A DNA stretch of 64,000 nt, from positions 1-64,000 of the IMG/VR virus record IMGVR_UViG_3300006104_000013. One strand, 5' to 3'. Of the stretch, positions 9,228-58,400 are shown in pieces. Within the stretch, counting starts at the first letter, position 1, and every line of letters starts with the position of its first letter. Position numbers and translations under genes: made by a program. The notes under the pieces were generated by a model. That model made no database searches. It was not told the DNA's origin and saw only the letters and a list, made by a program, of their open reading frames with translations. Source of the DNA: a virus.

Positions 9228-9569
9228 TTAGTTTTCCGGGGGGTAGTCGCGGTAGAGTCCGGCGAGGGCGGTACGGATCTCGCGCACCCGGTTTTCCCAA
9301 TAGGGAGTCATGCGCTGCCGCAGGAAGGTGCGTTCCAAATTTTCGATGGCGGCATGCTTGGCGTGGTCAGGCACGGACTCGTCGTCGTTGATTTCTTCAA
9401 GGGCGTCGAAGTAATCCCGCTTGATGTGGGCCAAGAGCTTTTTGGCGAAGAATAGATTCTTCTCAAGTTCTTCGGCCAGCCCCGGCAGGTGACGGGGGTA
9501 GCCCATTAGGGCGTCGTATCCGGCGTCGGTTAAGCTCTCGTCTTCGGGGGCAATGTATGCTTTCGTCAT
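9228..9569 (-). CDS. Hypothetical helical protein, 113 aa
   Basis: All-helical, charged protein (LAEELEKNLFFAKKLLAHIK, then KHAAIENLERTFLRQR). CAAGGAGACAAAA precedes the ATG. Its leader is the hammerhead at 9584-9636, so self-cleavage would leave this gene with a short 5' end of about 40 bases. Not recognised. Confidence 0.6.
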   Translation of the reverse strand: MTKAYIAPEDESLTDAGYDALMGYPRHLPGLAEELEKNLFFAKKLLAHIKRDYFDALEEINDDESVPDHAKHAAIENLERTFLRQRMTPYWENRVREIRTALAGLYRDYPPEN

Positions 9570-9583
9570 TTTTGTCTCCTTGT

Positions 9584-9636
9584 GGCACTCGTCAGTATCC
9601 GCCTTACGGATAGACCGGGTTGCCCCGGTTTCGGCC
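9584..9636 (-). ncRNA. Type II hammerhead ribozyme, copy 1
   Basis: Minus-strand RNA order: GGCC (stem II), GAA, stem III A-CCGGG / CCCGG-U with GCAA loop, C17 cleavage site, stem I UAUCCG / CGGAUA with 5-base loop, CUGACGA core, then GUGCC closing stem II with one bulged U. All invariant hammerhead core bases (C3 U4 G5 A6 x G8 A9, G12 A13 A14, A15.1-U16.1, H17) are present. Predicted cleavage is between plus-strand positions 9613 and 9612. The UAG stop of the upstream gene shares its G with stem II. Confidence 0.88.
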
Positions 9637-9860
9637 TATTTGATGGAATAGCTTACGGTGCCGTCGTCCCATGCCGTGATGCGGGCGTGTTCGCGCTTGG
9701 TCTCGGTGTCCCGATACATCGGGTCCACGTAATCGCCTTCCAGCGGGGCAATCGGCGGGTTTTGATAGCGGCGGAATCCTTGATCCAAGAGGTAGGTTTC
9801 AATCTCGTGGATTTTGGCGTCTTGGGCAGACGTAAGCCCGGTGGTGATGGCTTGCTTCAT
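9636..9860 (-). CDS. Hypothetical protein, 74 aa
   Basis: ATG at 9860 follows GGGGGAATAGCGCC. Helix first (SAQDAKIHEIETYLLDQGF), then strands ending in HARITAWDDGTVSYSIK. The upstream in-frame extension lies inside the neighbouring gene and was rejected. Its UAG stop is built into hammerhead copy 1. Confidence 0.6.
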   Translation of the reverse strand: MKQAITTGLTSAQDAKIHEIETYLLDQGFRRYQNPPIAPLEGDYVDPMYRDTETKREHARITAWDDGTVSYSIK

Positions 9861-9864
9861 GGCG

Positions 9865-10140
9865 CTATTCCCCCTTGGCCTTGGCGATGGCGGCGCGGGC
9901 TTGTTCCGCAAACTGTTGGCATAGGATGGCTTCGCCCATCACTGCCCCGTTATTTCCGCTATCGTGTGCCAGCAGAATGCGCTCAAGCGCAGCCAGCAGT
10001 TCCGGCGCGGCAATGATCAGATTGGCGGTTTCCGTGTCGTAAGCGTCTGCAATGTGGTGTCTTGCGGAGTCTTCAATGCGGTAAAGGCGGTTGTTTTCAG
10101 CGTCGATTCCGTCGATAGCTGCCCATGGTGTTGCTGTCAT
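9865..10140 (-). CDS. AAPELLAALE-type phage protein, 91 aa
   Basis: Contains TANLIIAAPELLAALERILL, the hallmark of a common phage early family of unknown function, and ends in an Ala-Lys helix (EQARAAIAKAKGE). GAGGGA lies nine bases before the ATG. Hammerhead copy 2 forms its leader, and predicted cleavage leaves a 57-base 5' end. Confidence 0.68.
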   Translation of the reverse strand: MTATPWAAIDGIDAENNRLYRIEDSARHHIADAYDTETANLIIAAPELLAALERILLAHDSGNNGAVMGEAILCQQFAEQARAAIAKAKGE

Positions 10141-10169
10141 AGTCTTAATCCCTCGTTAGCTTTGCTGAC

Positions 10170-10222
10170 GGCCTCGTCAGTGTGGGCACAACCCACAGAC
10201 CGGACAGAATCCGGTTTCGGCC
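10170..10222 (-). ncRNA. Type II hammerhead ribozyme, copy 2
   Basis: Minus-strand RNA: GGCC, GAA, stem III A-CCGGA / UCCGG-U with UUCUG loop, C17, stem I UGUGGG / CCCACA with UUGUG loop, CUGACGA, GGCC. Stem II is four perfect G-C pairs. Stem I differs from copy 1 at several positions yet keeps full pairing. Predicted cleavage is between 10198 and 10197. An alternative hairpin, CUGACG with CGUCAG, would sequester the catalytic core. Confidence 0.9.
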
Positions 10223-10223
10223 T

Positions 10224-11098
10224 TTAGTCTTGGTCCCAGAAGCCTAAGCAATACTGGATTCGCTTATCAATGTACTTAAGAGCGCCTTCTGGCGTGGTGC
10301 ATTCTTCGTTGTAGCCTTCGTTTGGGTGGAGTCCGGGGAATATGATTGCCCCCTGTCTTTTGTCGCCATGTCGGTGGGGTGATTAACGCCCATGGCAGTA
10401 AAAACTTTTTCGATGTCATAACCGCCCTTATAGACGTGCTTCAGGGACTGGATTACAGCAAAGTAAAGGCGACGAATGAAGGAAGGGTGTGCGATGATAA
10501 AGGCGAGTTTATCAAGGTCTAGGGCCTCCCCAGATTCCTTTGCGACAAGTGAAAAATCAAGTAACCGGCCTGTAATTTCCGACCCACATGCGCAAGAAGA
10601 AACAACAACTTCGGCGCTGTATCCTTCGTCTTCCAGCCGGTCAATGTAGGACAGGATGGAAACCCCCCAATTGGTAATTTCCTGCATGCTGGTCATGGCT
10701 GCGTGTGAGGCTGCCCCGATTTCGATTCGCACAATCTTGTTTGAGGGGCCTTCTTCAAGGTCACGGTAGACCATGCAAAGCGGATCGCCAGCAACAGCGG
10801 CAGGGATGCAGGGAAACGCCCCGGCGACGTCCAGCACGTTGACCGGGTGCAGGACTGTCTTGGTTAGGGCGAATGCGTCGTTTAGGCGCTCCACAATCAT
10901 GTGACGGCCTTCTGCCCAGCCAGTGCGGGCTACTGATATTGCTTCGCTTAGGGAGTCGGTCCCCCGAAACTCCCTATTGCCACGTTCAACAGAAGACGAT
11001 CTTTGCCACACTGGTGGGTGAGCTTCGATATAGGTCAGCATTTCATCAAGGCTAACAAAACCCATATCAATTCTAGTCGGGCCATATGTCAGTTTCAT
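10224..11098 (-). CDS. DUF7192-like protein, possible vWA-type partner of the AAA+ ATPase; apparent -1 frameshift
   Basis: ATG at 11098 (MKLTYGPTRIDMGF). The zero frame runs about 284 residues and includes NWGVSILSYIDRLEDEGYSAEVVV and LDLDKLAFIIAHPSFIRRLYF, which resemble a phage/plasmid family (DUF7192) often next to MoxR-like ATPases. The last about 35 zero-frame residues look like off-frame sequence, while the -1 frame from 10,382 gives a natural ending (FPGLHPNEGYNEECTTPEGA through to FWDQD) and a UAA two bases before hammerhead copy 2. Either a programmed -1 shift (runs of five G at 10349-10353 and four A at 10358-10361 on the coding strand) or a single-base error. The zero frame ends at 10244. 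Confidence 0.6.
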
Positions 11099-11102
11099 GG
11101 TT

Positions 11103-12584
11103 TTACTTCCCCATCTTGGCAGGCAGACGAACCGACATGGCGGATTCGATCTTGGCGCGCTGGTCGGCCTTGACGCCTTGCCACAAGCAGCGGTTTGCGA
11201 CGTCGCGCGGGTCTTCACCACGACGCAAGGCTTTTGCCCCTTTGAACGATGATCGGGGCGAGATGATGGACCGCACGTCTAATTCAGTGGCGGCGCGGCG
11301 GGCGTCCCGAACATAGGCAACCCATTGATCATGCCCGGCCAAGTCTTCAATGCGATGATCGTAGGCCATGGCGAATGTATAGAAGCGGTTCAGAGTCGCC
11401 CCATCCAGTTGATTGCGTCCCACATAGATGCGGTCAGCGCCCAACCCGTAGGTATTGGCTGCGGCCATGATGTGAAAATCAGGGTGGCGCTCAATCATGC
11501 CGTCTGGAAAGTCCATGTTCCCGTTTTCAATGGCGGCGTTCAGAACCAAGAGGACTCCGGGATGTGAAGCATCAACTTCGTCCAGCAGGAAGAGTCCACC
11601 GTTCTGATAGGCGTCCCGGAAGCGAGTCCGAACATAGCGCCCTTGGGCGTCCATATAGCCGGTCAGCTTGTAGGGCGAGTCAACGGCACCGGCCATAGCG
11701 AAGCCCAAGCCCAAGGCGTTGGCGACTTGTTCCGCAAGGGTGGTTTTTCCAGAGCCAGCCGGGCCTACCAACATGACGTTTTCCCCATCAGCCACGGCTT
11801 GCAGCACTTCGGTGAAGATTGGGTGATAGACGGCATCCGGCAGAGTCCGCGACTCTGTTTGGGTTTGGATGGTCAGCACAACGGAGTCGCGCTTGATGTT
11901 CTTGAGCCCTGCGTCAATCAGGTTTGCGACGTCTTCCAGAGTCGCGGCGTGTTGCTTGACCAAGCGCACAACGGTGGCCTCGTCAATTTCGACCTTGGGC
12001 GTCAATGTCTGCATCAGCAGTTGCAGAGCGGCGAGTTGGTCAGTGGTGGCAGCGGCTGTCATTGTCGTCTCGGTTTCCTTTTGCTTGAGGATGGATTTAT
12101 AGTATTCGGCGGAATCTTCGTCGGCTTCGACTTCGACCCATCCAGCGTCTGGTTCGTTGTCGTCAGGGTGGACAGGCACGTATCCTCGTCCGGTAATCTC
12201 GTAGTACACGGCCTGCTCGTCGTCTTCGGCCATAGCGGCAGTCAGCGCCTGGTATTTGGCTTGATGTGCGGCAAGGGCAGCGGCTTCGTCGAAGATCGGC
12301 GTGGGTGTCAGCAAATCGGGCTTGGTGGCGGTGATGTGCGGGCCAGTCCCGGCAATGTCGTTGTGCAAGTGCACGTCGGTGGTGTCGTTGTAGTATTTCA
12401 ACATCTGGCCGCACGTCGCGCGATTGACGAAGAGTCCGGGATCGGTCAAGCCAAGCTCCACCACATGGGCGCGAAGCCAATTGCGCACTTGCCCCCGATT
12501 GTCGGTATCCACCTTGGGCAGAGTCCCGCGATACCAACCAATCTGTTGGGTCAGCTCTCCGGCAGAGTGTTTAGGCTTTGCCAT
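11103..12584 (-). CDS. MoxR/CobS-type AAA+ ATPase, 493 aa
   Basis: ATP-dependent remodeller. Walker A is GPAGSGKTTL at about residue 272 and Walker B is GGLFLLDEVDAS at about residue 324. NAAIENGNMDFPDG and MAAANTYGLGADRIYVGR (sensor I region) follow, as in CobS/dynein-related AAA_5 proteins. The first 200 residues are a separate helical and acidic region. The next gene downstream on the same transcript may be its partner, paralleling CobS-CobT and RavA-ViaA pairs where a MoxR ATPase acts through a vWA protein. Phage CobS-like genes are common, but their substrate is unknown. Confidence 0.8.
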   Translation of the reverse strand: MAKPKHSAGELTQQIGWYRGTLPKVDTDNRGQVRNWLRAHVVELGLTDPGLFVNRATCGQMLKYYNDTTDVHLHNDIAGTGPHITATKPDLLTPTPIFDEAAALAAHQAKYQALTAAMAEDDEQAVYYEITGRGYVPVHPDDNEPDAGWVEVEADEDSAEYYKSILKQKETETTMTAAATTDQLAALQLLMQTLTPKVEIDEATVVRLVKQHAATLEDVANLIDAGLKNIKRDSVVLTIQTQTESRTLPDAVYHPIFTEVLQAVADGENVMLVGPAGSGKTTLAEQVANALGLGFAMAGAVDSPYKLTGYMDAQGRYVRTRFRDAYQNGGLFLLDEVDASHPGVLLVLNAAIENGNMDFPDGMIERHPDFHIMAAANTYGLGADRIYVGRNQLDGATLNRFYTFAMAYDHRIEDLAGHDQWVAYVRDARRAATELDVRSIISPRSSFKGAKALRRGEDPRDVANRCLWQGVKADQRAKIESAMSVRLPAKMGK

Positions 12585-12586
12585 GG

Positions 12587-12823
12587 TTAGACTCCTACGC
12601 TGGTTTCGGCCAAGGCCCAGCCCTTGGGCGCAAGGTTAATGATGTGGCTTAGACTGGGCTTGCCATCCAAGTACGTTTCAAAGCCCATGCGGCGAGCGCA
12701 TTCAAGCTGGTGCTCGTTCAGGGTTTTGACGCCAATGGCGTCGGCATAAGCCTGCGACTTGACGCAAGCCGGGTAAATCTTGGTCTGTCCGTAGACGCTC
12801 TTGGCGGTGAATTGCATAATCAT
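12587..12823 (-). CDS. Hypothetical protein, 78 aa
   Basis: ATG at 12823 follows GGAGTC. Sequence reads MIMQFTAKSVYGQTKIYPAC at the start, then a helix TLNEHQLECARRMGFETYL. Compact alpha/beta, not recognised. Located directly upstream of the AAA+ ATPase gene and likely co-translated. Confidence 0.6.
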   Translation of the reverse strand: MIMQFTAKSVYGQTKIYPACVKSQAYADAIGVKTLNEHQLECARRMGFETYLDGKPSLSHIINLAPKGWALAETSVGV

Positions 12824-12827
12824 GGCG

Positions 12828-13028
12828 TTAGACTCCTTTGGCTTTGGCGACGGCGGCACCAATCTCTTCCAGCATAGTCGCGTGGTGGGTGGGAACAAAA
12901 TCCAGCGCCGACTCTAACGTCGTCAACATCATGTCAAAGGCTTCGGCGGCTTCGTAGAGTCGCATTTGGGTATCCACATTGCGCTCCAATTGGGCGCGGT
13001 CTCGGATGATTTGCGCGTAATCAATCAT
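12828..13028 (-). CDS. Hypothetical helical protein, 66 aa
   Basis: ATG at 13028 with AAGGA upstream. Helical throughout, ending EEIGAAVAKAKGV, similar to the tail of the 9865-10140 protein (AAIAKAKGE); the two may be distant paralogues. Its leader is hammerhead copy 3. Confidence 0.6.
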   Translation of the reverse strand: MIDYAQIIRDRAQLERNVDTQMRLYEAAEAFDMMLTTLESALDFVPTHHATMLEEIGAAVAKAKGV

Positions 13029-13055
13029 GGTCTTCATTCCTTGGGTAGTTCTGAC

Positions 13056-13108
13056 GGCCATCGTCAGGTGACGCCACACGTCACGACCCGGCGAACCGGG
13101 TTTCGGCC
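13056..13108 (-). ncRNA. Type II hammerhead ribozyme, copy 3
   Basis: Minus-strand RNA: GGCC, GAA, stem III A-CCCGG / CCGGG-U with UUCG tetraloop, C17, stem I GUGACG / CGUCAC with UGUGG loop, CUGACGA, then U-GGCC (one unpaired U). Predicted cleavage is between 13085 and 13084. The UAG stop of the 44-residue gene shares its G with stem II, exactly as in copy 1. CUGACG can also pair with CGUCAG downstream, hiding the core. Confidence 0.9.
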
Positions 13109-13242
13109 TAGCGGTTTCTGATCTGCTCCAAGGCCAGCGCATAGCGGACAGCCGTAGCGCGGTGGGTGAAAGCGAAGGGGCGGCGACTCGCTTCGGGAAC
13201 GTTCCAGCCCTTTTTGGTGAATTTTACAGTGCAGGTGTTCAT
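13108..13242 (-). CDS. Hypothetical small basic protein, 44 aa
   Basis: ATG at 13242 follows GAAGGAGTC. The sequence begins MNTCTVKFTKKGWNVPEASR, with a strand, then a helix (AVRYALALEQIRNR). Strongly basic, so nucleic-acid contact is possible. Stop codon is part of hammerhead copy 3. Confidence 0.55.
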   Translation of the reverse strand: MNTCTVKFTKKGWNVPEASRRPFAFTHRATAVRYALALEQIRNR

Positions 13243-24656: not shown

Positions 24657-24734
24657 TGGTCAGGGTGAGTGGATTTGAACCACCGGCCTCTGCATTCCGA
24701 GTGCAGCGCTCTACGCAAACTGAGCTACACCCTG
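24657..24734 (-). tRNA. tRNA-Pro (anticodon CGG), CCA encoded
   Basis: Minus-strand cloverleaf: acceptor CAGGGTG / CACCCTG (seven perfect pairs), D stem GCTC/GAGC, anticodon stem CTGCA/TGCAG with loop CTCGGAA (anticodon CGG), variable AGGCC, T stem GGTGG/CCACT with TTCAAAT loop, discriminator A, then CCA. It is opposite in direction to all surrounding genes, and CCA touches the stop codon of the preceding gene. The D loop lacks a GG pair (TTTGCG), which may weaken the D-T loop contact. Confidence 0.9.
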
Positions 24735-47400: not shown

Positions 47401-49439
47401 CGGCAGGTCTTCAGAATGCCGGAGTCAAAGACGGCGACTCTCCGATGGTCCAAAATTACATGGACCAGTATAAGCAGATGCCGCTGAACCAGCTTTTGCA
47501 GATGGCCCAGCGCGTTCCCGCCGGGTCGGCGCAAGGGGCAATGATCCAGCAAGCTATTCTGATGCAGAAAATGAGGCCACAGCAGGCCCCGCAACCAGTT
47601 CAGCCCGGCCTTGCCGCAGCCATGGGGCCGCAAGCGCAGCAGCTCCGCACTGGTGGCCGCGCTGGATTCGCTCCGGGTGGACTGACAAAGCTTCCGTCGA
47701 GTGACGCCGTAGCTGATCTTGGAACTTTGCCGACGAGCGATCTGGTCGCTAATGGGCAACAGGATCAGACTGTTCAACCGTCGCCGCAGCCATTTGTGCC
47801 AGCAACCGCCGATATGGCCGCCGGGTTATCCCGTCCGACTGTTGATTCCACAGAAAAAGCCGCCAAAGCCGCTCTTGTTGACCCTCGTGTCAACAAGGAA
47901 AAGGCTATTGCAACTGGAATTGCCCTAGGTTCTGCGAAGGAAGCTCAAGCTGAACAAGACGCCAAAGCGCCCTTGACGCCGAAGCCGTCAGCCCCGGTAA
48001 ATCCAAATCAAACGGTATGGGATGCTCTCGGCCTTCCGAAGATCGGGACTGACGAACCGGAGAGCACTGCGAGCAAGGCGATGGCTAATCCCCCTGTGCA
48101 GCCGCCATCCCCTCCTGCTAAATCTGGTCTTGGAGCGCCGCAGCAAACGTCGGCGGAATATGACCCCATGGCTGAAGACCGGGCGCGCGGGGTATATAAG
48201 ATGCAAGATCCGGCCATCGATCGTATTGGGCATTTCCTGAAGGATTCATTGGGGCGCATTTATGGCGTTCCTGGTGCATCACCAGAATCTTCACCGACTC
48301 CGAGCCAGAAGGCATTGGCGCAAACAGCCCCAGTGCCTGCATCGACTGCTCCTGCGCCTAAAGCAGATTCACAACCGGCCCCAGCACCTCAACCTGGGCT
48401 CGGCCAAAAGGTTGACCCGACTCATTTGACGTTGGCGAATGGCCCAGCTTCGGCTACGGCCAAGAAAGATGTCTCTGGACTTAAGAAAGCTTCGCCGCAA
48501 GAAGTGGCAAAAGTGAACGCTGTCGATGCCGACAAGGTAAAGGTGGAGTCATCTCCGACCACATCGACGTCAACGCCGCCGCCGATCCATCCGCTTGACT
48601 ATACACCCGACAACCACACCGTTAACGCTAAGGACATGTACGACAAGTATGGATCAAACGATCCTTTGTGGAGCGGGTTGCTGTCAGCCGCCGCCGCGAT
48701 GGCCAACACCCATGGCGGAAGCCTACCTGCTGCAATTGGCCAGGGGGCTGTCTCCGGACTGGGTGCGTACAATAACCAGATGGCGGCCTATGCCCAGCAG
48801 GCCAAGGATGCGAACGACGCGACGGATAAGAAGAACCAAACCGCGTTGCGCGTGGCTGAAGCCAACCAAAAAACAGATATCGATAATACGACCGCAGCCC
48901 AACAGCAGCAGCGGATCGATATCGAAAAGGCAACACAAATCGAAACGGCGAAGAAGAACGCCGCCGAAATGAACAAACCTCAGATCGTCAATGTTGGGCA
49001 AGGTCTCGCCTTGGTAGTTCATCCAGATGGAACGTCTCAGACAGTGCGAGCTCAAGGATACGATACCAGCTTGGATAAAAGTGGAGGCAAAGATGCAACA
49101 ACAGCCCTGATTACGACGGCGAACTACCTGAAGGCAGCCGATCAGAACTCAGGAAAGCCAATGAAATCAGACGATGAATATCTCCAGAGAGCCGCCATTC
49201 TCCAAGGGCATAAGCAGCCAGCTCCAGGCATGACGCTTGCTCAGGCGAACACGGCCGCTCAGAAGGAAATTGATTCCGGTCTCGCGGTTAGCCCCGATGG
49301 AAAAGCTTTAAAAGGAGCTGATAGACTCGCGTGGAAAAAGAACAGAGTCGCTGAATTGACCGCATCGTCCTCGCCAGTTTCAACTCCGTCTGGTACAAAC
49401 CAACCGACAAAGACCATCAGCTTCAGCGATTGGAAATAG
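44406..49439 (+). CDS. Large virion protein with GGRxGLAxGG repeats, 1,677 aa
   Basis: Front: GKGGGSGGGTNTVSQSAPPT, then Gln/Ala-rich helices (QQFANQNAQQDQQLLGSTIQ, GAFGGDREAIARAALAGQQQ) as in phage internal or tail-injection proteins. Four copies of GGRxGLAxGG-like motif occur (near nucleotides 45510, 46030, 46560, 47650), also frequent in environmental phage proteins. A Pro/Ala-rich middle and a C-terminal half with GLLSAAAAMANTHGGSLPAA and charged coiled coil (QQRIDIEKATQIETAKKNAA) follow. Likely ejected with the DNA or part of the internal core. Two bases separate it from the polyvalent gene. Confidence 0.65.
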   Translation: MGKGGGSGGGTNTVSQSAPPTAVLNAYQSINNQAQAQASAPLNQYAGATIAGFTPQQMQGYQTTQQDQGVQNPYINAAAQLYGDVGNQINVPQFSGYQVGQYMSPYTQSVVNATGQQFANQNAQQDQQLLGSTIQQGAFGGDREAIARAALAGQQQVSQAPTIAGLYNTGYGQALNEFNNQQNVNVNAQTTGDWLASNAAAGLSGLGSAAANGLSTQAGAQTAAGAQQQQLSQEQLNVPYQNFEQAQAFPYQQIGWNSNIAESMGAGSGGTSTTSQPGASLGATIGASAIGLGGIAGATGGFGNGGWLYDNGSSAGGLLNSAGSSIGQGLSNIGLAKGGGIKEYHGFGGMAASGIPGTGNGDTSGFLADGGRVGLAGGGTMMAGMTGLGNMKQYGTSMSTSTGPGPSAGVQLQKAAGDIGSIRNAYGLANSIYQGAISNQLGLDAAGNAVGAGSAWTGSTAGLGGANIGEGVGQLSSGFTNIGSFGGSASGVGTAAEAAGTAAETAGTAAEAGTAASSMAGGAGTVSEGLGEFIPLIFAKDGGRIGLAGGGLPTTQGTTEDGVPQGGTDAISPFIPNNSNPFTIVGKSAYAPHVGGHGVGIPAPPAPTHQDPIKQAVEMASSLGKAIGSQKNTGDGKPTPGTPWSGSTASLTGQNTGDGVAPGYGSPMGAPGQSQFTSPDQPAQGVSQNAAPANMSNGFTGPSTLPAIPGVSQTYKEGGRVGLANGGSNAGVSQGWNAGQAQGVQTHAPVQQQYSGYHPSMGFGGWGMPQSQRGYQMPQGYMGYQAPAVGASPWLSGSLVNQRGIAIPQLETGGYGPQGQNLYGYAAPSRANLNSSMMQNYAAPNTGTLPYYSTSYGVLTPASIHNGVSQYAYSAPTTTLVGKGQNAIPQQPMNATPFGAPDGSTVGQISQADIFRAELNGTSGNANPLVYQNGNPIGWLNGSNYQKGNPGLQADTSQSSSPGGKLSTGGAVTPYEKIRKNRDTGGSTNAEPTPEQQVTAGLQNAGVKDGDSPMVQNYMDQYKQMPLNQLLQMAQRVPAGSAQGAMIQQAILMQKMRPQQAPQPVQPGLAAAMGPQAQQLRTGGRAGFAPGGLTKLPSSDAVADLGTLPTSDLVANGQQDQTVQPSPQPFVPATADMAAGLSRPTVDSTEKAAKAALVDPRVNKEKAIATGIALGSAKEAQAEQDAKAPLTPKPSAPVNPNQTVWDALGLPKIGTDEPESTASKAMANPPVQPPSPPAKSGLGAPQQTSAEYDPMAEDRARGVYKMQDPAIDRIGHFLKDSLGRIYGVPGASPESSPTPSQKALAQTAPVPASTAPAPKADSQPAPAPQPGLGQKVDPTHLTLANGPASATAKKDVSGLKKASPQEVAKVNAVDADKVKVESSPTTSTSTPPPIHPLDYTPDNHTVNAKDMYDKYGSNDPLWSGLLSAAAAMANTHGGSLPAAIGQGAVSGLGAYNNQMAAYAQQAKDANDATDKKNQTALRVAEANQKTDIDNTTAAQQQQRIDIEKATQIETAKKNAAEMNKPQIVNVGQGLALVVHPDGTSQTVRAQGYDTSLDKSGGKDATTALITTANYLKAADQNSGKPMKSDDEYLQRAAILQGHKQPAPGMTLAQANTAAQKEIDSGLAVSPDGKALKGADRLAWKKNRVAELTASSSPVSTPSGTNQPTKTISFSDWK

Positions 49440-49441
49440 AC

Positions 49442-52400
49442 ATGGATGTCACAATGCCGGACGGTACTGTTGTTAACAACGTGCCTGATGATATGAGTAA
49501 ATCCGACTTTGTCGCTAAAGCTAAAGCAAATGGGGCATGGAATCCTTCCTGGGATGCCCCGCAGAAATCGCAGAATCCAGGCAGTGATGATCAGCCGGGA
49601 ATCCTCGAATCTGGCCTCAAAGGATTTGCCAAGGGCGTTATCGGATCGGCCAAGAGTCTGAAGACGACGGCTGTCGGTGACGCCCTGCATCCTGAGAATG
49701 ACGCCCCAGAGGGTGAGCCGGACTCTGTCGATAAGTTGATGGCCGATCCTAACTGGTGGCACCATGGCGCTGGCTGGGCGGCAAAGATCGGCGCTGGCCT
49801 CGGCGGCGTTGCTCCCGGCATGGGTGCAGCAGCACTTGCCTCCGCCCCGTTCGGCGGACCAGAAGACCCTCTCGGCGCGGCCGCTGGTACGGCGGCATGG
49901 GCCGGTGTTTCGGCTATGCAGGAATTGCCTGAAGCGTATCGGAGGAACCTCAAGAACGGGGATGACGCTGAAACGGCCTATAACAAGGCATGGAAGGACT
50001 CTGGGATCGCTGCGGCCACGGGCGCACTGATGAATATCGTTCCTGGCATGAAGGCATTTAAAGGCGCGGCAGATGCGACCGGAAAAATCTCTGCCGACGA
50101 AGCGGCAAAAGCCTATCTGAAAAATCTGGTGTTCCATACCTTTGGAACCGGCCCGGCCATGGGCGCGGCCCAAGACATTGCCCAAAGCGAGGTCGATACC
50201 GGAAAGGCCCCCGATGCCCAGGATCTGGCGCTGAATGCTGCTGTCATGGGTCTTACCGGCGGCGTTCAGGCGGCCATTCATCATGGTGTCGCCAAGGTGT
50301 TGCCTCAAAAAGCGGCAACAGAAGGGACCCCCAACAAGGAAGTCCCGCCACCTGCCACGACCGGTCACTATGTTGAACCGACTGTCACCGGTGGATTCCA
50401 GGTTTTTGGTCCGGACCAGCAGCCGGTTGCAAATGGATTGCACAAAACTGAAGACCTTGCAGCAGCCCATGCGAACAGCCTGAACGCGGCCGCCACAGAA
50501 CCGGCCAATACACCAGTCGATCAAGCGGCAGCAGTCCAGCGGCAGGGGGATCAACAGCTCGAAGGGGCTTTGGCGCAAGAGACGGGGGACGAGCTTCCTC
50601 CCGACGTGCCGCCTGCCGTCCCAAATGGGCCGTCCCTTTCCGGTCTGAACAAGCCGAAAGAACCAACCGCAACAGGTGGTGACGAACAACAAACCGTCAG
50701 CGAGCCCAATGCGACTCTCTTGCACCAGCAAAAGCAGTTGCAGGACGGACTCCGCCCAGCCCAGTATTTCCCGAACGAAACGACTCCTCTACCTCTTCCA
50801 GATGGCATGCAGGAAGTAAAGACGGATCGCGGTGTATTCCATATCAACCCGAAGCTGACATCAGAGGAAGAAGTCCATCAGAAAGCGGCGGAAGGTCGAA
50901 TCGGTGATCTGCTGAACCTCGGTCCCTACAATAAAGATGACATCAACAATCGTGTTGCCACCGGTGAGCAGCCGGTAGCCGTGACCGAACGTACGCCGGA
51001 TGGGACCGAAGTCCGTGCCGCGCATGGAACGGGTCAGACGGCAGCCGAGCAGGCAGCTTATTTTGAACAGACCAAAACCCCTGGAAACACGATTGCCGTA
51101 GAACATCCGCTTGAAACGGTTGCGAAGCGCATCGAAAACGCCCAGGCAGCCCCCCCTGCCGAAAGCGAGTCGCCTCAGACCCCCGCCGCCCCCTCGGTGG
51201 AGTCTGGGGCGACGCCCCCCATTGACGAAAAGACTCCGGGAACGCGCAAAAACCCGATCGACGTCAAGACGGCAGAAGATCTTCGCGCCGCAGAGGAAAA
51301 CATTGATCACGAGCCGACTCCGGCTCAGAAAACGGCGTCGAATTACGAGCACGGCCATATCCGCCTGCATGGACTCGATATTGGCCTAGAAAATGGTAAG
51401 GGCAGCAAGCGCACTGGCATCGGCGAAGATGGCCGCAAATGGACGGCGGCAATGAAGGCGGCCTATGGCTACGTCAAAGGGACCATCGGCAAGGACAAGG
51501 ACCATGTGGATGCTTTTATCGGCGACCATGTGGAGTCCGACAAGGCGTTCATCATCGATCAAAAGAACTTGGCCACCGGTGAATTCGACGAGCACAAGGT
51601 CGTCCTTGGCGCACGGGATGAAGCGGAGGCCCACAAAATCTATGATGGGAGCTTTTCGGACGAGGAAGGTCCAGCCCGGCGCATGGCCACGACCGAAGTT
51701 CCCATCCATGATCTGAAAGAGTGGCTGGCCAATAAGTCGAAAACTCAGGAAGAAGCCGCTCCGCACTTCGCAGAAAAGGCCGAGATCGAGGCCGCAAAGG
51801 AAAAACTGAAGGCGGCGATATCTCGACATCCGGCTTCGACGATCTTTAAAATTAAGGATGCGATCGCCGCTACAGGTCTCGATTCGGCGACAGCTCGATC
51901 CTTGCTGAAAGAGGTCGCCGAAGAGGCAGGACTGGAGAATAAAAGCGGGTCTTTCTTCACGTCAAAAGCCGGGGAAAAGTTGTCCGCCTTTTCCGCTGTT
52001 CCGAACCCACCGCGTCGTCTCAGCACTTGGATCAAATCCAAAGGCGGCATCAAAAATGAGGGGGAAGAGCTGACGAATGCCATTAGGCAGCGCCCAGGAC
52101 TTGTGAACAACAAGACTGGAATGACGCACGAAGATGCTGCTTTGGCGGCATGGCAGGCAGGATATTTCCCCGAACACGGCAGCCCCAAGGAAGACGGGAC
52201 TCCTCCAGATATTTCCGCCTTTCTCAAGCGCCTCGATGAAGACATCAGGGGAAATAAGCAGTTTTCCGAGCATGACACGGAAGAGCTTGAAGCGTTTAAC
52301 GATGCAATCTCCCGCAACGAGGAAATCTCAAAGCTTGCCGACGAGCATGATATTCCAACTAGCGGGTTAACACAGGCGGAGTTTTATGATAAGCTCCGTG

Positions 52401-55400
52401 AATCAATGTCGTTGCGGGATATGGCTCGTCTCCAAAAGGAACAAGAGGATTCGCATCTGGCGGCGATGGCCGAGGCTGAAGCTAGGCAGAAAGAATGGAT
52501 GGATCAACGGGGTGAAGCCTGGGAGCCCGATTGGGAGCCGAAGGGGCGACCCCGGACACTGAAGGATTTACAAGATGAGTATGAGCGAGAGGAGCTTGCT
52601 AGAAGGGCGTCTGAAGGCGAAGGCTCTCCTGACGCATCCGAGTCCGGAAGTTCGGACGCAAGCGAAGAAGGCGCTGGATCACGCGAACGTAGCTCTGGGG
52701 ATCAGGGCGGCAATGAAGACCTCCGAAACAAAAGCATCGGAGACGCCATCGGATTAACGTCTGAAGCGATTGCAGCAGCGGATAAAGCCGCCAAAGCAGA
52801 GGCAGACAAGGCATCAAAACTAGAGCAGCACAAGCTGGAGAAATCCCAGTCTAAACTGCGGAAGAGTGGGCAAAAGAGCGCAGAGTCGCAGAAGGACGGG
52901 TTGTTTGCAAAGGCTGCTGAAGGCGACCAAGGGGACCTCTTAAGCCAGCCGAAGCCAAAAGCGGAATGGGGAAGTGCCAATAAGCTCGTTTCTACAGAAC
53001 GTGCAGAAGCGATCCGAGAGGCTCTCCGAGCAAAGATGCGGTCCCAGATCAGCTCAGGTCTTGACCCAGAGACGATCATGCTTGGAACCGAACTTGCCGT
53101 CTATCATATCGAAGCCGGGGCTCGGTCATTTGCTGATTTTGCAGGACGGATGATCGCCGACTTAGGAGACAAGATCCGTCCGTTCTTAAAGATGTGGTAT
53201 AACGCTGCGCGGGATTATCCCGGCATGGATGACACAGGAATGACCCCCTATGAGGAGGTCAGGAAGTTTGATCATAATGGAGAGTTCAATGTACCAGACC
53301 TATCCGGAGATTTGGAACGAGATAGCGGAAACGCAGAAATTGGCGACTCCGTGGGCAAACCGGATGTTCAATCTAAAGGGGATAGAGCAACACAAGGCTC
53401 TGGACGCGGAGACGAACGAGCTGAAGAAGGAAGGGTACGGCCTGACAGTGATATCGGCATTTCACCAGATGGCACCGCTTCTGTGGGAGAGGGTGGCGAT
53501 AGCGAAGTTCAAGCAGAAGCATCCGGGGCTCGACAACGCGCTGCCGAACGTGGAGGACAGCCAGGAGGCTACGATGTTGGCGAGCATGGACCGGCCATTA
53601 TCCACATTGGAGCAGAGTCAGTTGGTAAAACTGCTGGAGACTCCCCGGAATTAGCCAAAAAGGAAGCGGCACAGGCCAAGGCCAATAAGCTTGAGGTAAA
53701 GCCAGGACTGAACAATATCAGGGAAACCCTCCCGTACCTGCTGCCTGGGCAACATGACGACATCCACAAGGCCGAACAGCGTTTCGCTAAACCAGACGGC
53801 CACGGTATGTTGTTCTCTAATGGCACCGGGACAGGTAAGACCTTTACTGGCGGTGGCATCATTGCTCGTTTCGTCCGTCAAGGAAAAGGCGACATCCTGA
53901 TTGTCGCCCCGTCGCAAGGCATTGTGGCTGATTGGCAAAAAGCCCTGGCGAAAATTGGCATTGAATCCTCCGTTCTTGAATCGACGACAACCGCTGGGAA
54001 AGGTGTTGTTCTGGCGACGTATGCCAATCTTGGGGAAAACCGTCATTTGGCCGATCGCAACTGGCATTTAGTTGTTGCTGATGAGTCCCAGAAATTGATG
54101 GCCAATGAAAACGGGGAGCCAACGGGAGCCCTAAATCATTTTCGTGCGATCACAAATCATCCAGATGGCCTTTCTACCAAGGCCAATATGCAATTGCGCG
54201 ACTTGAATGACCGTCTTGACGAAGTGACTGCAATAGCGCAGGGAAAGAAGCCACCGACTCCGGAAATGTCGCGGGAAAAAGCTTCCGAGCTAAGTTCTGA
54301 GTTGAATAGAGAACTTAACAAAAAACGTAACGACCTCATTGATAAGTTCAGCCAAGAACCGCGATCTAAAGCTGTCTTCCTTTCTGCCACGCCACTCCCT
54401 TACGTAAAAGCTATTGATTACGCAAATGGATACCTGTTCCACTATCCAAAGGTGGAAAAGACCGGAGCCTACAATCAGGCCGACGGACGAGGCCAGTTTC
54501 TGATGGAGAACTTCGGCTATCGGATGCGCACCGGAAAGTTGACCGAACCCGATTCCAATGTCGATTCAGGGATCATGGAACGCGCCTTCCATGAGAAGCT
54601 CAAACGCGAAGGGTCTCTCTCCACCCGCCGTTTGGACGTCGATGCGGATTACGATCGCAAATTCGTCCTCGTGAATGATGCCGTAGGCCATAAAATTGAC
54701 TCTTTGATGGAATTCCTACGGGAAGCCGATAACGGCAAGTTTAGGCATATCGCCGAGATCGTGAATGAGAACTTCGACTATCTGAGCAGAATGCGGCTGC
54801 TTGAGGCGATCAAAGCCAATCATTTCGTGCCAATCATAAAAAAACATATCGAGATGGGGCGCAAGGTCGTCGTCTTCCATGATTATAATGAGGGCGGCGG
54901 TATGAATCCGTTCGACCTATCGAATGTGCCTAATGCGGAAGTTCCGCTGCGGGTCAACGGTAAGGACGAAATGGTGAATTTGCAGGATTTGGCCAGAGAG
55001 TTCCATGATCGGAATCCGGAAGCCAAGAAGATGGACTTCTCGCAGTTTAAGGCTCCTATCGAGACAATGCGGGACGCATTTCCTGCTGCCCTCTTTTATA
55101 ACGGCAATGTCCCTGAAAAGGCCCGCGCTCAAGCTAAGATGTTGTTCAATCAAGATGGCAGCGGCCGAGACATCATCGTTGTCAATTCTGCCGCCGGTGA
55201 AGCCGGAATCAGCCTGCATGACACCACGGGCGCACATCAGCGTGTTCTGATCAATCTGGGGATGCCGATTAAGCCGACCACGGCCATTCAGGAAGAAGGC
55301 CGGATCTATCGCACCGGGCAGGTGACGGACGCTCTCTTCCGCTACGGAAACACTGGCACCAATTGGGAGCGGTGGACCTTTGCTGGGAAGATCGCCGACC

Positions 55401-58400
55401 GGGCCGGAACCGCTGAGAACCTTGCCATGGGGAATGAGGCGCGGGCACTCAAAGAGGCATTTATCAATGCTTTCAATGATTCGGACGAATACTCCCCATC
55501 AAAGGACGAGGGGAAAGGCGGGAAGGAGTCCGATCGATCTGGTGCGGCAGAAATGTCGGAGTTTGATCGGGCAAAATCCTATTACTGGGCGCAACAGAAG
55601 AAGACCGGGCGTCGTGACCAGCGTGAAGGCATCGACTATTTCCCGACTCCAGAACCGATCGGCCAGAAGATGGTTGAATGGGCGGACATCAAACCTGGAG
55701 ACAAAGTTCTGGAGCCGTCGGCCGGACATGGCGCTATTGCACGGTGGTTCCCTGAACACTCAGATCGGACTCTAATCGAGCCATCAGGGGAGCTCGCCAG
55801 CCGAGCGGCATTAGCCAGTCCAGGGGCCAAGGTTCTCGACCATAACTTCGAGGACCTCCATAAAGTCAATAAATACGACGCTATCGTGATGAACCCACCC
55901 TTTGGACAAGGCGGGAAAACGGCCATCGACCACTTGGCCTTGGCGGCGTCTCATATTCGAGAAGGCGGCCGCATTGTCGCCCTGCTGCCTGATGGTCCAG
56001 CCGCGAACAAGCGTTTGGCAGACTTCTTGGTCGAGCACAATTACCTCCATGACGTTGGCGTGATCAAGCTGCCGGAGTCCGTTTTTGAAAAGGCGGGGAC
56101 GGCGGTAAGAACCCATGTCGTCGTCCTTGAAAAGCACAGCGATCATAACTCTATGGCTGATGGTCCTGGTAAATTTGAAGGGTCCGCAATCCATACTGAC
56201 AAGAGCAACGCGAAAGATATCAAAGAACTATTTGACCGGATCGAGCATGTTTCGCTGCCGGGGCGAATCGAACCAACGGTCAAAGAAGTTGAATCTGTAC
56301 CTGACGCTAAAGGCAACATCAGCGCGGGAGGCCACGACTATGTCCTATCGACCGCGCAAAATGGCGATTTCCTGGTCAAGCCGAAGAAGTATTTGGCCGA
56401 TGACTATCACCGGATCAATGCTTTGGCCAAAGAAAACAATGGCGGATATGGCAAAGACGATAAATCATTCCGCTTCAAAACCGAGTCGGATCGGTCGGAA
56501 TTCTTAAAGGCGCTCGCCAGCGGGGCCGAGCCCAAGCCATCGCAGACTGCTGGGTTTGGGGTCGATTTTGAGAAGGCCCAGGCCGTCCACTCGAAGACAG
56601 GTAAGGATCTCTTTGTAGCCATCCCGCAGAGTCGGGTTGAAACCGATAAGTTTCACCAGATGAATGCGCTGGCCAAGCAATTTGATGGGGCCTATTCGGC
56701 GTGGAAAGGGAAGGGGGCTGTTCCTGGGTTCCAGTTTCCTTCCGAGGCAGCGCGCGAAGCTTTCATCAATGCGGCGACCGAGGAAAAAATCGGACCTCGT
56801 GGCGCCGCCGATAATGACGAGATGCCGGATATCACCCCTCACCAAGAAGCGCGAGGCGAAGTCCTCAAACGTGGGGAATCCGACGGAAACGAGCACAACG
56901 CCTTCGTCGATCGAGAGGGCAAGATCATCTATGAGACCAGCGGAAAAAATGATTCTGTCGAATTCTCCAACGCAATACTAAAAAGGCTGATGGACCAAAA
57001 AGAATCCATAACTATCCACCATAACCATCCTTCAAATAGACCGTTAAGTCAGCAAGATTTTCTTCTCTTAAGCTATCCTGGTATTGACCATGTTGTTGCG
57101 CATGGTGACGGGGTAATGAGTTCAGCTACATTGACGGAACTTGGCCGGTCGATTGTCGGAACTGGAGCATCATCCCATGCTGACTGGGAGAAAATAGTTC
57201 GTAAAGTTAAGCGCGATGTCGATGAATCGCTGTTTAGCGCTTACGAAGCCGGAGAAATTGGTTCTGTCCCCACTATGTCTGAACAAAGAATGGCATTGGG
57301 GCAAGCTCTGCATCAGTCTGGGCTCATTGAATACCACTCAACTCATGATGTTGCGCGTGGAGAGCCTGCTTTTAATTATGCTGTTGATAGCGGTGTTACT
57401 GGTGCCATATCTTCAGTAAAGCGTTTGAAAAAACCAACAGCGGAGATGGAAGATGATCGGTTGCATAGATCCACCTGGACTGGAAGCGTCGATGACGGAA
57501 TTGCAGACCTTCCGTCGAAAACTGAAAAAAATGGATCAGACGGACAGGGCGGTAAAAGTGGCTTTGGAGGACATCGATTTGACGATCAAGCGCAAAGTCA
57601 GATCGATCAAGATCGAAGCGCAACGGGGAGCTTAAATGGACTTGCCGGGGGCAGCGAGCCCGTGGAAAAGCCTGACGGGCAAAAAGGAGGACCAAACCCT
57701 CGTGGGACATCTGATAGCGACGAGCTGACGGAGACCCAGAGAACCAACCGTCAGCAGGTGGCGCAAAAGATCAAAGAAGGGGTTGAAGAACACAAGGAGT
57801 CGGCAAAGACCCTGTGGAAAGCGATCCAAATGATTTGTGCCCCAATGGCCACCGGAACCGATAAGGGCAAGGTGATTGCCAAGCAGTTCGCCAATAGCAT
57901 TCGTGACGGTCTATATCGCATGAATCAGACGATCGATATGCTGGCCAAGGGGTTCTCCCCGGAGCAGCTCGGAAATATGTGGCGGGCGCTCGACGATACC
58001 TGTGTCCGCCATTCCATGGAAGAACGCGACTTCATCGCCGAAAACATCAATCGCATCCAGGCCAAAATGGCTGAAAAGTGGATCGAACGAGGAATGCCGG
58101 AAGATGAGGCCATGGAAAAAGTATTTCCGGCAGCCATGGAAGCCGCCAAGATTGAAGCCCGTGGAGAGCTGGAGAAACGTGAAAAGGCAATGGCCGAAGA
58201 GAAGTTCGGGATCTTCTCCCTCCCGGATGATCAGCGCGACATCGTCATGGACCTCTCCAAGCAGGCCGACCAGCTTTGGAAAGAAGCTCTGAACGCCAAC
58301 CTTGTGTCCGGCCAAGGCTTGCCTCGCTGGACTCCGCGCATGCTGGCCATGGTCTCGGATGAAGGACATTTTGAGCCGATCCAAGGCGACCCAGCCAAAC

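Follow-up and report, generated by a model that had tools for sequence, protein, structure and literature searches.

Type II hammerhead ribozymes are known from bacteria and prophages, where they occur in clusters flanking single genes or short blocks of genes, and three tandem arrangements have been shown to cleave in vitro and one to do so in vivo in E. coli (Perreault 2011, PMC3088659). The stretch of DNA considered here (the window) is 64,000 nucleotides long and belongs to a 99.6-kb virus sequence in which terminase and portal genes are present. A sequence-only reading of the window had claimed three such ribozymes, with stem II open, on the minus strand, and the claim is borne out by a descriptor, an independent covariance model and covariation among relatives. 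The descriptor, which asks for GAAA, a stem III hairpin ending in U-H, a stem I hairpin, CUGANGA and stem II, returned exactly three copies in the 64 kb; 100 dinucleotide shuffles yielded no match. The covariance model was trained on 26 sequences, all from other contigs and gathered with patterns modelled on the window, and gave copy 1 (9584–9637) 61.5 bits (E = 1.1e-14), copy 2 (10170–10223) 61.2 bits (E = 1.3e-14) and copy 3 (13056–13109) 58.0 bits (E = 9.7e-14); the runner-up in the window was a truncated match of 18.2 bits. No further copy was found in the 99.6-kb record, where the remaining model matches reached at most 18.2 bits, and one pattern match at 93057 of the record stands at pattern level only.

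Each copy reads, from 5′ to 3′, A-GGCC-GAA-A, a stem III hairpin, U-C, a stem I hairpin, CUGACGA and GGCC. The full hammerhead core that had been described (CUGANGA and GAAA, with U-H at the cut) is present without a flaw in all three copies, as are the three helices, with stems I and III closed by loops and stem II open, and in copy 1 stem II needs a bulged U to form. The minimum free energy folds of copies 2 and 3, ended just past stem II, are the hammerhead fold, and the predicted cuts (9613/9612, 10198/10197 and 13085/13084) agree with the positions 9612, 10197 and 13084 given earlier. The boundaries proposed at that time hold except that the true start lies one base earlier, at an A kept in 331 of 333 relatives with a GGCC stem II (472 of 492 short-stem-I relatives overall). 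Similarly, a bulged U had been noted in copies 1 and 3 and is present in both, but its site differs: in copy 1 it lies inside stem II (G-U-GCC), and in copy 3 it separates A9 from stem II. No consistent case of pairing between loop I and the 3′ tail beyond stem II could be found by eye among the three copies.

The covariance-model check put forward by the sequence-only reading had a divided outcome, in that the independent model recognized all three copies and Rfam at its gathering cut-off (37 bits, RF02276 Hammerhead_II) recognized none, matching only a tRNA; at a lax threshold (E up to 10), copy 3 was listed as Hammerhead_II with 26.6 bits (E = 0.027) and copies 1 and 2 were not listed. The missed cut-off, the extra U in copies 1 and 3, and the finding that 4 of 18 consensus hammerheads were inactive in vitro (Perreault 2011, PMC3088659) might suggest chance or decayed motifs without activity. 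This is an exceedingly improbable account, given E-values of 1e-13 to 1e-14 from the independent model, a perfect core in three of three copies, a placing at gene boundaries like that of relatives, and the fact that 125 of the 333 GGCC relatives have, like copy 3, an extra U ahead of stem II. Their identity as type II hammerhead ribozymes has strong support from sequence and covariation. Rfam at cut-off also reported just one hammerhead when run on 20 relative loci, and because it misses most of the members sampled, sites of this sub-class are probably under-annotated.

The genes from 13242 to 9228 all run leftward with short gaps, and the ribozymes stand as separators between short genes, each copy beginning at or just past the stop codon of the upstream gene and preceding a Shine-Dalgarno sequence and a start. 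Copy 3 follows a 44-aa open reading frame (13108–13242, minus strand; no Pfam match) whose stop UAG (13110–13108) overlaps the start of the ribozyme. Downstream of it lie four minus-strand genes, namely a 66-aa gene (12828–13028, no Pfam match above cut-off), a small gene (12587–12823, no Pfam or PHROG match), an AAA+ ATPase (11103–12584, PHROG 249, annotated as porphyrin biosynthesis) and a DUF7192 protein (10244–11098, PHROG 1909), the last before copy 2. Copy 2 is followed on the same strand by two small genes, of 91 aa (9865–10140, no Pfam match) and 74 aa (9636–9860, no Pfam match above cut-off), the stop UAG of the latter (9638–9636) overlapping the start of copy 1, which in turn precedes a 113-aa gene (9228–9569, minus strand; no Pfam or PHROG match). 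The stop UAG itself provides both the conserved A and the opening G of stem II in copies 1 and 3. A single leftward transcript may cut itself into at least four pieces, as was proposed from the letters of the window, a count to be read beside the bulge that copy 1 carries in stem II.

Promoter and terminator scans of the window performed no better than on shuffles, and a search for synteny through the AAA+ ATPase returned a single distant viral locus. Beyond the stop of the DUF7192 gene (10244) a second minus-strand frame is open at 10224–10346, running to a UAA at 10226–10224 beside copy 2; this may reflect a frameshift or a separate short reading frame, and the stretch has no Pfam match. Elsewhere the window holds a 3743-aa open reading frame on the plus strand (49430–60661) and one tRNA-Pro (CGG) gene on the minus strand (24657–24734).

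Relatives were gathered by scanning viral contigs and bacterial genomes with patterns, and the descriptor recognized 582 unique type II elements among them. From these a sub-class of 492 was defined by a short stem I hairpin (15–19 nt) and a stem II of at least 4 bp; the scan patterns fixed the core and mostly the sequence of stem II, and therefore frequencies in this set are not unbiased. The hallmarks of the sub-class are a 4-bp stem II, an A directly 5′ of it and a loop I of the form UNNNG, found in most of the 492. Stem I covaries, since among 85 relatives 99.5 per cent of cells were paired, compared with 60.9 per cent after shuffling, and six of seven pairs had changed on both sides. The published pseudoknot between loop I and the tail was not enriched in the short-stem-I class (49 of 492, against 47–67 with swapped tails); in the long-stem class it was enriched (55 of 86 elements, against 26–33 with swapped tails).

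The position between genes is also a property of the sub-class, and the window copies share it. Among the 442 short-stem-I relatives with enough flank, 69 per cent follow a sense stop and precede a Shine-Dalgarno start, the figures for the antisense strand and for random sites being 2 per cent and 6 per cent, and the commonest arrangement where a stop was found places its U at −1 (122 of 403). In five viral contigs (L076, L351, L078, L120 and L080) a single strand carries a series of 7–10 type II hammerheads within 8.5–14.6 kb, and with up to ten in 14.6 kb elsewhere the three of the window are not extreme. The element, tail included, is present in the cultured Burkholderia phages BcepGomr, Maja and Karil-Mokiny-1 and twice in Streptomyces phage Satis. 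In the locus from Karil-Mokiny-1 (L622, 1547–1786) an annotated CDS start falls inside the hammerhead, and for that reason the start has probably been annotated too early.

Overlooked by the sequence-only reading was the pentamer GUCAG, which directly follows copies 2 and 3 and in each is exactly complementary to the CUGAC strand of that ribozyme's own core. It occupies 10165–10169 of the minus strand after copy 2 (core strand at 10176–10180) and 13051–13055 after copy 3 (core strand at 13063–13067), so that both copies, with C at N7, carry the downstream NUCAG complementary to CUGAN. Copy 1 also has C at N7, but its tail, ACAAGGAG, lacks NUCAG. A downstream NUCAG exactly complementary to CUGAN occurs in roughly 30 per cent of the 492 members, clustered at two positions just past stem II, and where the tail lies farther off the helix can span all seven core bases. 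In the 50 nt upstream a matched NUCAG was found in 14 of 492 and was not enriched, which is weak evidence because the upstream side is coding sequence. The long-stem class likewise had no excess of the anti-core tail (8 of 86, about 7 expected).

Among 127 short-stem elements with UCAG 3–10 nt after CUGANGA, the base before UCAG was the Watson-Crick partner of N7, the core base that varies, in 124 (C-G 80, U-A 40, A-U 2 and G-C 2, with 3 mismatched). The scans fixed N7, so these are not natural frequencies of that base; the tail was part of no pattern. The association is strong (Fisher test on C/U against G/A, 9e-33, or 1.5e-22 with each combination counted once per cluster), and this test, conditional on UCAG, is the informative one, albeit framed after the first table was known. 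When near-identical ribozymes with different N7 were compared, the tails of both members matched in 67 pairs, and in 4 pairs only one of the two did, the pairs being mutually non-independent; L084/L356, L152/L166 and L238/L416 are examples of paired change. Because N7 and tail change together in near-identical relatives, selection on the pairing within the sub-class is indicated. Three single contigs (L166, L381 and L598) hold ribozymes with differing N7, each with a matching tail, and L410 is identical to L250 except for G in place of C at N7, with GUCAG unchanged, a natural mismatch.

In the AGCC/GGCT set, scanned after the rule had emerged in the GGCC set, the direction was the same and the signal weaker: with N7 = U the tails were AUCAG in 12, GUCAG in 3, UUCAG in 3 and CUCAG in 2, and with N7 = C they were GUCAG in 2, CUCAG in 2 and AUCAG in 1. 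Pair counting over all members used alignments A3–A5 in place of the mixed A1 and A2, which were dropped because the extra U shifts the tail. Shuffles reached the covariation score in 1 of 500 cases for A4 and 16 of 500 for A5, and some slid versions were similar, in a count that is diluted by the inclusion of members without a tail.

Two simpler accounts of the tail can be weighed against these observations. The inverted repeat CUGAN...NUCAG could be a DNA operator or a protein-binding RNA hairpin with no role as competitor of the core; it lies near starts, and a palindromic DNA site would account for the covariation as well. This seems very unlikely, as the spacing varies by several bases, the helix extends to as much as 7 bp when the arms are spaced apart, one arm of the repeat is the invariant core of the ribozyme, and the long-stem pseudoknot class shows no enrichment of the repeat. 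Alternatively, the copies could be plain type II hammerheads that cut the operon into units, the complementarity of the tail having no consequence in this phage. Clustered copies flanking prophage genes, with cleavage shown, are on record (Perreault 2011), and the tail is not essential, given that copy 1 and most relatives do without it; the paired changes of N7 and tail in near-identical relatives, however, show selection in the sub-class and make this account an unlikely one.

The reading we favour, with a confidence near the even mark, is that these are intercistronic type II hammerheads of a sub-class that cleaves and then locks. It builds on features visible in the sequences, namely the three helices, the full core, the stop-start position and the N7-tail covariation in relatives. 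As the leftward polycistronic RNA is being synthesized, the ribozyme would fold once the second strand of stem II emerges. The predicted cut falls after C17, and from known hammerhead chemistry the upstream message would be expected to end in the stem III hairpin with a 2′,3′-cyclic phosphate and the downstream message to begin with a 5′-OH and the stem I hairpin. The core strand CUGAC(G), once freed, could in copies 2 and 3 pair with GUCAG to give a second hairpin flush against stem I. Such a hairpin would break stem II, free the upstream piece and prevent re-ligation, and would leave a compact 5′ end ahead of the Shine-Dalgarno sequence; that order of events, the locking itself and an effect on mRNA life are what we infer from this arrangement.

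Folding calculations bear on this sequence of events. CUGAN in the active core and CUGAN paired with NUCAG are mutually exclusive, and for copies 2 and 3 the tail is predicted to compete with the active fold. When anti-core RNAs were ended at stem II, that stem formed with P > 0.5 in 99 per cent of them; with 40 nt added the share was 7 per cent (50 per cent for elements without a tail), and thus folding of the ribozyme can come first and its displacement afterwards. The anti-core helix had P > 0.5 in 94 per cent of 3′ products. It also wins in 84 per cent of full-length precursors in the secondary-structure calculation, and so could act before cleavage; the median energy gap between the two folds is 0.2 kcal/mol, counting the stated helices only and with tertiary contacts outside the calculation. 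If cutting is faster than displacement the tail would lock the product, and otherwise it would be a brake. Such a calculation is no arbiter between the two, because sequential folding but fast exchange was found in vivo in one study, in which ribozyme assembly was reported to be blocked by downstream competitors as well as upstream ones (Mahen 2010, PMC2817708).

It is conceivable, and we advance it tentatively as the main rival to locking, that the tail pairs with the core before cleavage as a brake or switch, making cutting a regulated step that needs the core to be freed by a ribosome, a helicase, a pause or an RNA-binding factor. The loss of stem II in most anti-core RNAs with 40 nt downstream, folds as near to isoenergetic as those of a bistable switch, and the blocking by downstream competitors in vivo are all in keeping with a brake, and the stop codon abuts the 5′ strand, which a terminating ribosome could mask. 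Nevertheless, the whole ribozyme emerges before the tail, no ligand-binding or sensor element was seen, and the tertiary contacts that favour the hammerhead are absent from the calculation. Common to the brake and to cleavage followed by locking is the broader proposition, which we consider probable, that a strand downstream of the catalytic core evolved the ability to pair with it and serves as a built-in conformational switch, whether lock or hold-off, in a widespread phage sub-class.

We know of no proven answer, since 2011, to the question of why phages carry hammerheads between their genes. A selected pairing of the ribozyme core with the start of the downstream message offers a concrete, mutable handle on this placement. 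With compensatory mutations of N7 and its partner in the tail, cleavage would be separable from locking or braking, and the core should be spared because N7 varies naturally; as cultured phages carry the same element the idea is testable without the virus of the window. No description of a core-complementary tail was found in the literature searched, which covered few subscription journals.

Comparison with known systems places these elements as follows. The RiboJ-type ribozyme insulators of synthetic biology combine a hammerhead cut with a hairpin that fixes the 5′ end of the message before the ribosome-binding site; they are engineered, and their added hairpin does not use a strand of the ribozyme core as an arm. 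Theta ribozymes of gut phages (Nat Commun 2024, PMC10879173) are likewise small self-cleaving ribozymes that process phage transcripts, but they have an HDV-like fold, lie beside tRNAs and are not hammerheads. Compared by description, the clusters known from Agrobacterium tumefaciens, Azorhizobium caulinodans and Clostridium scindens (Perreault 2011) also have several ribozymes that cut one polycistronic RNA, and they differ in their flanking genes (ardA in A. tumefaciens). With the type II class as a whole (Perreault 2011, Rfam RF02276) the three copies share the core, the circular permutation that leaves stem II open and the clustering in phage operons, and they are new members of that already known kind. 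The published consensus, however, includes the pseudoknot between loop I and the 3′ tail, for which the present sub-class has no enrichment; members of the sub-class have a stem II of 4 bp preceded by a conserved A, a loop I reading UNNNG and, in many cases, a core-complementary tail, and mostly miss the Rfam cut-off. What is new here is this sub-class, with its 4-bp stem II and a core-complementary tail that covaries at N7.
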